A stretch of 64,000 nt of DNA from Bacteroidota bacterium (lineage in GTDB: Bacteria > Bacteroidota > Bacteroidia > B-17B0 > Aurantibacillaceae), in the NCBI GenBank assembly GCA_030684395.1, contig JAUXTT010000011.1:124001-188000 (forward strand). The letters run 5' to 3'. Both the position numbers and the translations under genes were made by a program. Below the pieces are notes generated by a model. The model had not been told where the DNA came from, did no database searches, and was given only the letters and a program-made list of their open reading frames with translations. The stretch's first letter is position 1, and each line of letters opens with the position of its first letter. Shown piece after piece: positions 50,267-51,688 of this stretch.

Positions 50267-51130
50267 ATGCTTAGTATAGACCCATCAGCAATTCCGGTTC
50301 AGCAATTACACGCTTATTTATTAGGTGCTGTAGGTCCGCGCCCTATTGCTTTTGCAAGTACTATGGATAAAGACGGAAACCCGAATCTGGCTCCTTTCAG
50401 TTTTTTTAATGTATTTTCTTCCAAACCACCATTATTGATCTTTTCTCCCAACAGAAGTGGAAAAACAGGTGATACAAAGCATACACACGAAAACGTAAAA
50501 GAAGTTCCGGAAGTGGTGATCAACGTTGTGAGTTATAACATGGTTCATCAGATGTCATTAACCAGTAGTCCTTATGCTAAAGGAGTTGATGAATTTGTAA
50601 AATCAGGATTCACAAAGCTTGCCTCGGAAATGGTTCGTCCTTTCAGAGTAGCGGAATCTCCGGTTCAACTGGAATGCAAAGTATTGGAAGTAAAAGAACT
50701 TGGAACAACGGGTGGTGCAGGAAACCTCATCATTTGTGAAGTTTTAAAAATGCATATCAGCAAAGAAATCCTGAATGAAAAAGGAATTATAGATCAACAC
50801 AAAATTGACCTTGTTGCTCGTATGGGCGGAAACTGGTATTGCAGAGCACATGGAAATGCTTTGTTTGAATTAGAAAAACCGGTAACTACTTTAGGTTTGG
50901 GTGTTGATGTATTACCCGAAACAATTCGTCACAGTAAAGTGCTTACAGGCAACAATCTCGGACAATTAGGGAATTTAGAAGTAATGCCAACAACTCAGGA
51001 AGTGGAAGCGTTTAAACAATCGAATTGTAAATTCGGAACTGAAACAGAATTACACACTAAAATAAAAGAACTGCTGGATACACAACAGGTAAAAGAAGCC
51101 TGGCTAACAATGCTATCCAGCCTTAATTAA
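50267..51130 (+). CDS. Flavin reductase-like (FMN-binding split-barrel) protein
   Basis: The 287-aa protein has the flavoredoxin/flavin reductase-like fold: AVGPRPIAFASTMDKDGNPN and NLAPFSFFNVFSSKPPLLIF (FMN binding), VINVVSYNMVHQMSLTSSPY, and a second half with AHGNALFELEKP. It may be an FMN oxidoreductase of an undefined pathway. A GAACTTCG variant -7 element (50252-50259) lies 7 bp before the ATG. Confidence 0.85.
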   Translation: MLSIDPSAIPVQQLHAYLLGAVGPRPIAFASTMDKDGNPNLAPFSFFNVFSSKPPLLIFSPNRSGKTGDTKHTHENVKEVPEVVINVVSYNMVHQMSLTSSPYAKGVDEFVKSGFTKLASEMVRPFRVAESPVQLECKVLEVKELGTTGGAGNLIICEVLKMHISKEILNEKGIIDQHKIDLVARMGGNWYCRAHGNALFELEKPVTTLGLGVDVLPETIRHSKVLTGNNLGQLGNLEVMPTTQEVEAFKQSNCKFGTETELHTKIKELLDTQQVKEAWLTMLSSLN

Positions 51131-51241: not shown

Positions 51242-51631
51242 ATGGAAATAACAGGAATCCTAAAACTAAAGTACGACACACAACAGGTTAGTGACAAATT
51301 CAAAAAACGTGATTTCGTTTTAACTATTGAGCCTACATCCCCTTATCCACAGCATGTAACAATGCAGTTAACGCAAGATAAAGTTTCTTTGATCGACAAC
51401 TTTAATGTTGGAGAAGAAATGAAAGTATCTTTCAACTTACGTGGAAGAGAGTGGAACAGCCCACAAGGTGAAACAAAATATTTCAACACTATTGATGCAT
51501 GGAGAGTTGAGAAAGCAAGTGCTGCACAAAGCAATCCAGCAGCTAATAATGTGTCTAATTCTGCTCCTCAAAACACATCTTCTGCACCTGTATTTAATAG
51601 CAGTGCAGCTGATGATGATTTACCATTTTAA
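51242..51631 (+). CDS. DUF3127 protein with SSB-like acidic C-terminal tip
   Basis: The 129-aa protein has an N-terminal domain of about 90 residues (KKRDFVLTIEPTSPYPQHVT ... FNVGEEMKVSFNLRGREW ... FNTIDAWRVEK) matching the DUF3127 pattern, probably an OB fold. A flexible Asn/Ser/Pro-rich linker leads to the C-terminal tip DDDLPF, nearly identical to the DDDIPF tip by which single-stranded DNA-binding proteins recruit repair proteins. A role in DNA metabolism is inferred from this tail. Confidence 0.8.
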   Translation: MEITGILKLKYDTQQVSDKFKKRDFVLTIEPTSPYPQHVTMQLTQDKVSLIDNFNVGEEMKVSFNLRGREWNSPQGETKYFNTIDAWRVEKASAAQSNPAANNVSNSAPQNTSSAPVFNSSAADDDLPF

Positions 51632-51653: not shown

Positions 51654-51688
51654 AAGCCTGATAAATAGTACATTTGTCAGGCTTTTTT
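51654..51688 (+). terminator. Terminator of the DUF3127 gene
   Basis: AAGCCTGA (51654-51661) pairs with TCAGGCTT (51677-51684), followed by TTTT. Confidence 0.85.

Follow-up and report, generated by a model that had tools for sequence, protein, structure and literature searches.

The gene at 51242-51631 of the window (the whole stretch of 64,000 nucleotides analysed here) probably encodes a divergent SSB-type protein, whose OB domain would bind ssDNA and whose acidic C-terminal tip would dock enzymes of repair, recombination and replication restart. The gene, its parts and its surroundings are as follows.

51242..51631, + strand: DUF3127/SSB-type gene of 129 aa, ATG start, TAA stop (51629-51631) included
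51242..51514, + strand: predicted OB-fold domain, residues 1-91 (AlphaFold model, pLDDT 90-96 per 10-residue block)
51452..51487, + strand: beta4-beta5 hairpin with the near-invariant family block, W71..PQGETKYFN (74-82), from the alignment and profile comparison
51515..51610, + strand: linker, residues 92-123, rich in Asn, Ser, Ala and Pro (pLDDT 53-61; high column entropy)
51611..51628, + strand: acidic tip DDDLPF, residues 124-129, from the translation; conserved in homologues
51654..51688, + strand: terminator-like inverted repeat AAGCCTGA..TCAGGCTT, then a T run, read by eye
50267..51130, + strand: flavin-reductase-like protein (PF01613), the upstream neighbour, by family match

A Pfam profile search placed the window protein in PF11325 (DUF3127; E 1.6e-26, residues 2-90) with 92.7 bits against a gathering score of 27. 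Together with the ORF translation, this match bears out the architecture proposed from the letters of the DNA, namely a DUF3127 domain, an Asn/Ser/Pro linker and a DDDLPF end. The protein also matched phrog_4932, 'single strand DNA binding protein' (E 2.7e-34, 118.8 bits), with residues 1-129 aligned to positions 1-117 of 117, tail included. A second SSB PHROG, number 44, covers the later part of the protein (E 3.9e-7). Mismatches against the homologue L002 (67% amino acid identity) were distributed 37/24/69 over the three codon positions, and the gene is thus under coding constraint.

The fold was predicted with AlphaFold2 as a single chain, built on an alignment of 85 rows. The model contains strands at residues 2-10, 21-29 and 37-44, a helix at 45-53 and strands at 59-72 and 78-91 (pLDDT about 95), followed by a C-terminal tail of pLDDT 53-61, i.e. 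predicted to be disordered. This order of strands and helix is, in the model, that of an OB fold. Foldseek returned 142 PDB chains at E <= 0.001; among the best 50 of these 142, all were SSBs of bacterial or yeast mitochondrial origin except for a single PriB. Using VIA-align, the SSB of Salinibacter ruber (5odn) scored Z 11.8 (rmsd 2.4, 91 aligned residues), tied with yeast mitochondrial SSB (Z 11.8) and with PriB 4fdb and 1woc_C (Z 11.4). When viral models were searched, the named best matches were DUF3127 phage proteins and the next were phage SSBs. The OB fold that the sequence-only reading had suggested is thus predicted at pLDDT about 95, and the fold matches listed are SSB and PriB. By the predicted model and the fold searches it is an SSB-type OB fold, and the disordered linker and conserved acidic -PF tip of SSBs are found as well. 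The tie with PriB, and the PriA encoded in the window genome, would also suit a PriB-like primosome factor, that is an OB-fold relative of SSB acting in restart with PriA and not coating ssDNA in bulk. We consider this unlikely, as PriB is not known to have an acidic -PF tail, whereas the window protein and 112/118 bacterial copies have one, and as phages with no other SSB carry DUF3127 in the SSB slot.

Kinship with SSB could also be detected by profile comparison. Aligned with 14 SSBs from these genomes (hhalign), DUF3127 gave a probability of 93.9 (E 1.5e-7) over 40 columns, which form the beta4-beta5 half of a domain of about 90 columns in all. In this alignment W71 falls on the Trp of the host SSB beta4-beta5 loop, the DNA-contacting W88 in E. 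coli. The best PDB match by profile search was DrSSB (E 0.0099); a PDB sequence search with the single window protein gave nothing significant, the best being DrSSB at E 0.89. In the Pfam search the window protein had no match to PF00436 at E <= 10, and none of 36 phage DUF3127 relatives passed the cut-off of that family. Across 36 viral contigs PF00436 gave eight matches (E 1.6e-4 to 5.5e-3), all of them inside DUF3127 ORFs. Membership of PF00436 was therefore rejected. It also counts against the SSB reading that the sequence similarity spans only half the domain and stays below this cut-off throughout. Because of this failed cut-off we call the window protein a divergent SSB-type variant, SSB-like on paper and outside PF00436. 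A search of NCBIfam gave one chance match only (E 0.12).

Conservation of the tip in homologues, a check proposed with the sequence-only reading, held among copies chosen without regard to it. Bacterial copies were picked from Bacteroidota genomes via the PF11325 domain alone, and 118 copies from 112 genomes, out of 218 matching genomes, were read in a sample spanning families and weak matches. A -PF terminus was found in 112 of these 118 domain-selected copies. Our own domain profile recovers 114 of the 118; 112 of the 114 end in -PF and 110 have at least two Asp/Glu among the seven residues preceding it. Column entropy falls from 2.9-3.9 bits across linker positions -6 to -30 to 1.1-1.5 bits over the next three positions and 0.14 bit over the final two, so that the C-terminus is best read as an anchored tip on an unconserved, free linker. 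Within the window, the DUF3127 gene is the only one of 53 non-overlapping ORFs of at least 120 codons to end in -PF, the other 52 having no such end. Likewise, 74 of 895 ORFs of at least 120 codons in 80 related loci end in -PF; all 74 are the DUF3127 gene, and none of the 821 other ORFs shares the ending. By these counts the acidic tip is a family trait and more than chance. Another 80 close relatives were found with one pattern lying near the tail, and this set is therefore not counted as independent; DLPF is the end of 79 of them, and the remaining one (L078) has DDLPF plus seven further residues.

Exceptions are few among the bacterial copies. Two of the 114 (L183 and L189, family f14) are full-length copies that have lost -PF and kept an acidic end; the ordinary SSBs of their genomes still end in DDDLPF. 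Both genes adjoin a gene which, by ORF reading, resembles peptide-chain release factor 3. Given these two copies, and 12 of 80 viral copies that are tailless, the tip is not indispensable everywhere. The four copies missed by our own profile (L199-L202) are short divergent extras in two genomes. Three of them (L199-L201), in genome G373, are short tailless PF11325 copies, each next to a related ORF of ~150 codons, an arrangement that looks like a repeated mobile element.

DUF3127 was found in 102 of 105 sampled Bacteroidia genomes, that of the window included, and in 116 of 287 Bacteroidota genomes outside Bacteroidia; most of these genomes have just one copy. Of the 14 control genomes chosen by name, only Bacteroides had a match. 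Two contigs (L016, L033) with 70% GC, whose labels read Proteobacteria and Kofleriaceae, carry DUF3127 with the tip, and the family is therefore probably not confined to Bacteroidota. Two other contigs, labelled Saccharibacteria (L002) and Nitrotoga (L046) and of 35-37% GC, carry close Bacteroidota-type copies and are probably misbinned. The SSBs of the three Bacteroidia genomes without DUF3127 end in DDLSF (G292, L295), DHSF (G388, L296) and EDLPF (G370). A tie between absence of DUF3127 and an altered SSB tip is suggestive in the first two, but is not claimed because G370, which keeps EDLPF, does not fit. Extra SSB-like proteins in G292 and G388 (L304, L309) end in VDDLPF and VEDLPF.

The window genome contains one DUF3127 protein and three PF00436 proteins. 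Its main SSB (L082) ends in SSDLPF, and the other two are short and without a tip. These last (L083, L084) are encoded in tandem on an 8.4 kb contig (C10) of the window's own genome (G000), adjoining an ORF that by ORF reading resembles a ComM/magnesium-chelatase family protein. RecO, PriA and RecQ-type genes are present in the same genome. Across 81 sources, a flavin-reductase gene lies upstream on the same strand in 70 and a Leu/Phe-tRNA transferase gene downstream in 65; in the window an asparaginase gene comes next instead. A 3-methyladenine glycosylase gene on the opposite strand in 40 of the 81 was not relied on. The chromosomal neighbourhood in these sources held no pointer to DNA repair; it says that the gene is a settled chromosomal one and is silent on function. 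We counted it against an SSB role that the neighbours are flavin reductase and Leu/Phe-tRNA transferase, with no repair genes. RNA and proteins, too, are ligands of OB folds, and an RNA-binding or ribosome-linked protein with an SSB-like tail for another reason would agree with the Leu/Phe-tRNA protein transferase gene nearby in 65/81 sources and with weak matches to IF3 (E 0.53 and 0.83) when the PDB was searched by profile. It is very improbable nevertheless: the SSBs encoded in these genomes have a matching tip, the fold matches are SSB, and phage homologues sit with annealing proteins, exonucleases and primases.

Relatives of DUF3127 were found in 118 phage records, 79 of them named as phages of Flavobacterium and 17 as phages of Polaribacter, and in 188 viral stretches. 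Such numbers of phage homologues could suggest that the bacterial gene is a phage leftover without cellular function, which is scarcely credible for a mostly single-copy gene of 102/105 sampled Bacteroidia genomes that has the same upstream gene in 70/81 sources and whose changes are biased to the third codon position. In Nonlabens phage P12024S an Erf annealing protein and then a YqaJ exonuclease come before DUF3127, which is followed in turn by a small hypothetical protein, a DUF3310 protein and primase. Flavobacterium phage mumin9-1 has an endonuclease before DUF3127 and a helicase and primase after it, in Fpv5 a DNA polymerase and a RusA-like resolvase are encoded no more than about 3 kb away, and in Cellulophaga phage phi18:3 a RecT-like protein lies upstream. 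The count of viral neighbours covered 149 of the 210 ORFs next to the gene and 40 of the 56 distinct loci among 80 viral ones. Erf-like annealing proteins were the most frequent named neighbours, two Erf families having 12 members each that may be identical, and further common neighbours were helicase, primase/helicase, recombinase, HNH endonuclease, DNA methyltransferase, NinB/Orf and exonuclease. Phage DUF3127 thus occupies the SSB slot of recombination and replication modules. Four complete phages carrying DUF3127 and 36 viral contigs, 27-66 kb long and possibly fragments, were all without a separate PF00436 SSB.

The tails of the phage copies are more varied. Among 80 viral copies, 60 have the -PF end, eight have altered ends and 12 terminate immediately beyond the OB domain. 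The twelve tailless proteins (L230, L237, L240, L241, L249, L254, L256, L265, L269, L279, L281 and L282) are 90-96 aa long. Their other frames held no hidden tail with an acidic -PF end; L265 has one chance PF* in another frame. Tailed and tailless phage DUF3127 proteins would form a natural pair for probing the role of the tip.

SSB is usually regarded as the sole ssDNA hub protein of a bacterium, and PriA and RecQ are known clients of its tip. In the divergent SSB-type protein proposed here, the OB domain (residues 1-91) would bind nucleic acid in single-stranded form, on the side that bears the conserved beta4-beta5 hairpin W71..PQGETKYFN; as the most likely ligand we infer ssDNA rather than RNA. 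The linker and DDDLPF tip would dock repair, recombination and restart enzymes through their SSB-tip pockets, and DUF3127 would in this way share the clients of SSB. In Bacteroidia the chromosomal gene would accompany the ordinary SSB, presumably with a division of labour between the two, and in Bacteroidota phages DUF3127 would serve as the phage-encoded SSB, alongside annealing protein, exonuclease, helicase and primase. The earlier suggestion that DUF3127 complements or competes with SSB is plausible, because the host SSB ends in SSDLPF and the genome has RecO, PriA and RecQ. Tentatively, and with some doubt, we extend this to a standing two-SSB system in Bacteroidia, in which nearly all genomes would keep DUF3127 as a divergent second SSB, its tip, almost identical to that of SSB, would compete for SSB clients, and from which phages would have taken the gene, some then dropping the tip. 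The second SSB might here steer ssDNA to another fate, e.g. recombination or restart, and phages might have taken DUF3127 to draw host enzymes onto phage ssDNA. RecO is a known SSB-tip client according to an excerpt of PMC10018359.

The domain had been called uncharacterised. That description stands for Pfam, where it is still a DUF, and for NCBIfam, which has no meaningful model for it, and fails for PHROGs and RefSeq phages, where the copies are named single strand DNA binding protein. Because PHROGs and RefSeq phage records already name DUF3127 so, the likeness to SSB was known on the phage side. What has drawn less notice is the near class-wide chromosomal DUF3127 in Bacteroidia and, in the window genome, its presence beside an ordinary tipped SSB. 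Among the papers listed, a literature search found no study of the chromosomal DUF3127 family, nor did essentiality data for the gene turn up; it left the term 'PF11325' unmatched; 'DUF 3127' matched a paper which, in the excerpt available, concerns a salt-tolerance gene. If the proposed role is true, a Pfam DUF gains a testable function, and the existence of another ssDNA hub, with the same tip and throughout the class, would recast the understanding of repair, replication restart and recombineering in Bacteroidia.

Lastly, we compared DUF3127 with known systems. PriB shares the OB fold at a tied score (Z 11.4), but the acidic tip is present in DUF3127 and is not known from PriB. Pneumococcal SsbB is likewise a second SSB beside a main one; expression only in competence is, in the excerpt of PMC3128108, a feature of SsbB. 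Excerpted work on Flavobacterium SSB (PMC3991886) concerns the ordinary SSB. In Pantoea phage AAS23, gp25 is described in an excerpt of PMC8004638 as an SSB matching both an SSB domain and a DUF3127 domain; gp25 was recognised as an SSB by HHpred, and differs from the window protein in not being a Bacteroidota chromosomal protein. PHROG 4932 of Bacteroidota phages (e.g. NC_018271.1 gp20) is the same family as the window protein; however, in phages it stands in for SSB within a phage module, whereas the window gene is chromosomal, in a genome that also has a normal SSB. Bacterial SSB itself (PF00436; S. ruber 5odn, host L082) differs in that DUF3127 falls below the PF00436 cut-off, aligns by profile over 40 of about 90 domain columns, has a different conserved core (PQGETKYFN) and shares the window genome with a true SSB. 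With bacterial SSB it nonetheless shares the predicted OB fold (Z 11.8), the disordered linker, the acidic -DLPF tip and the Trp in the beta4-beta5 loop.
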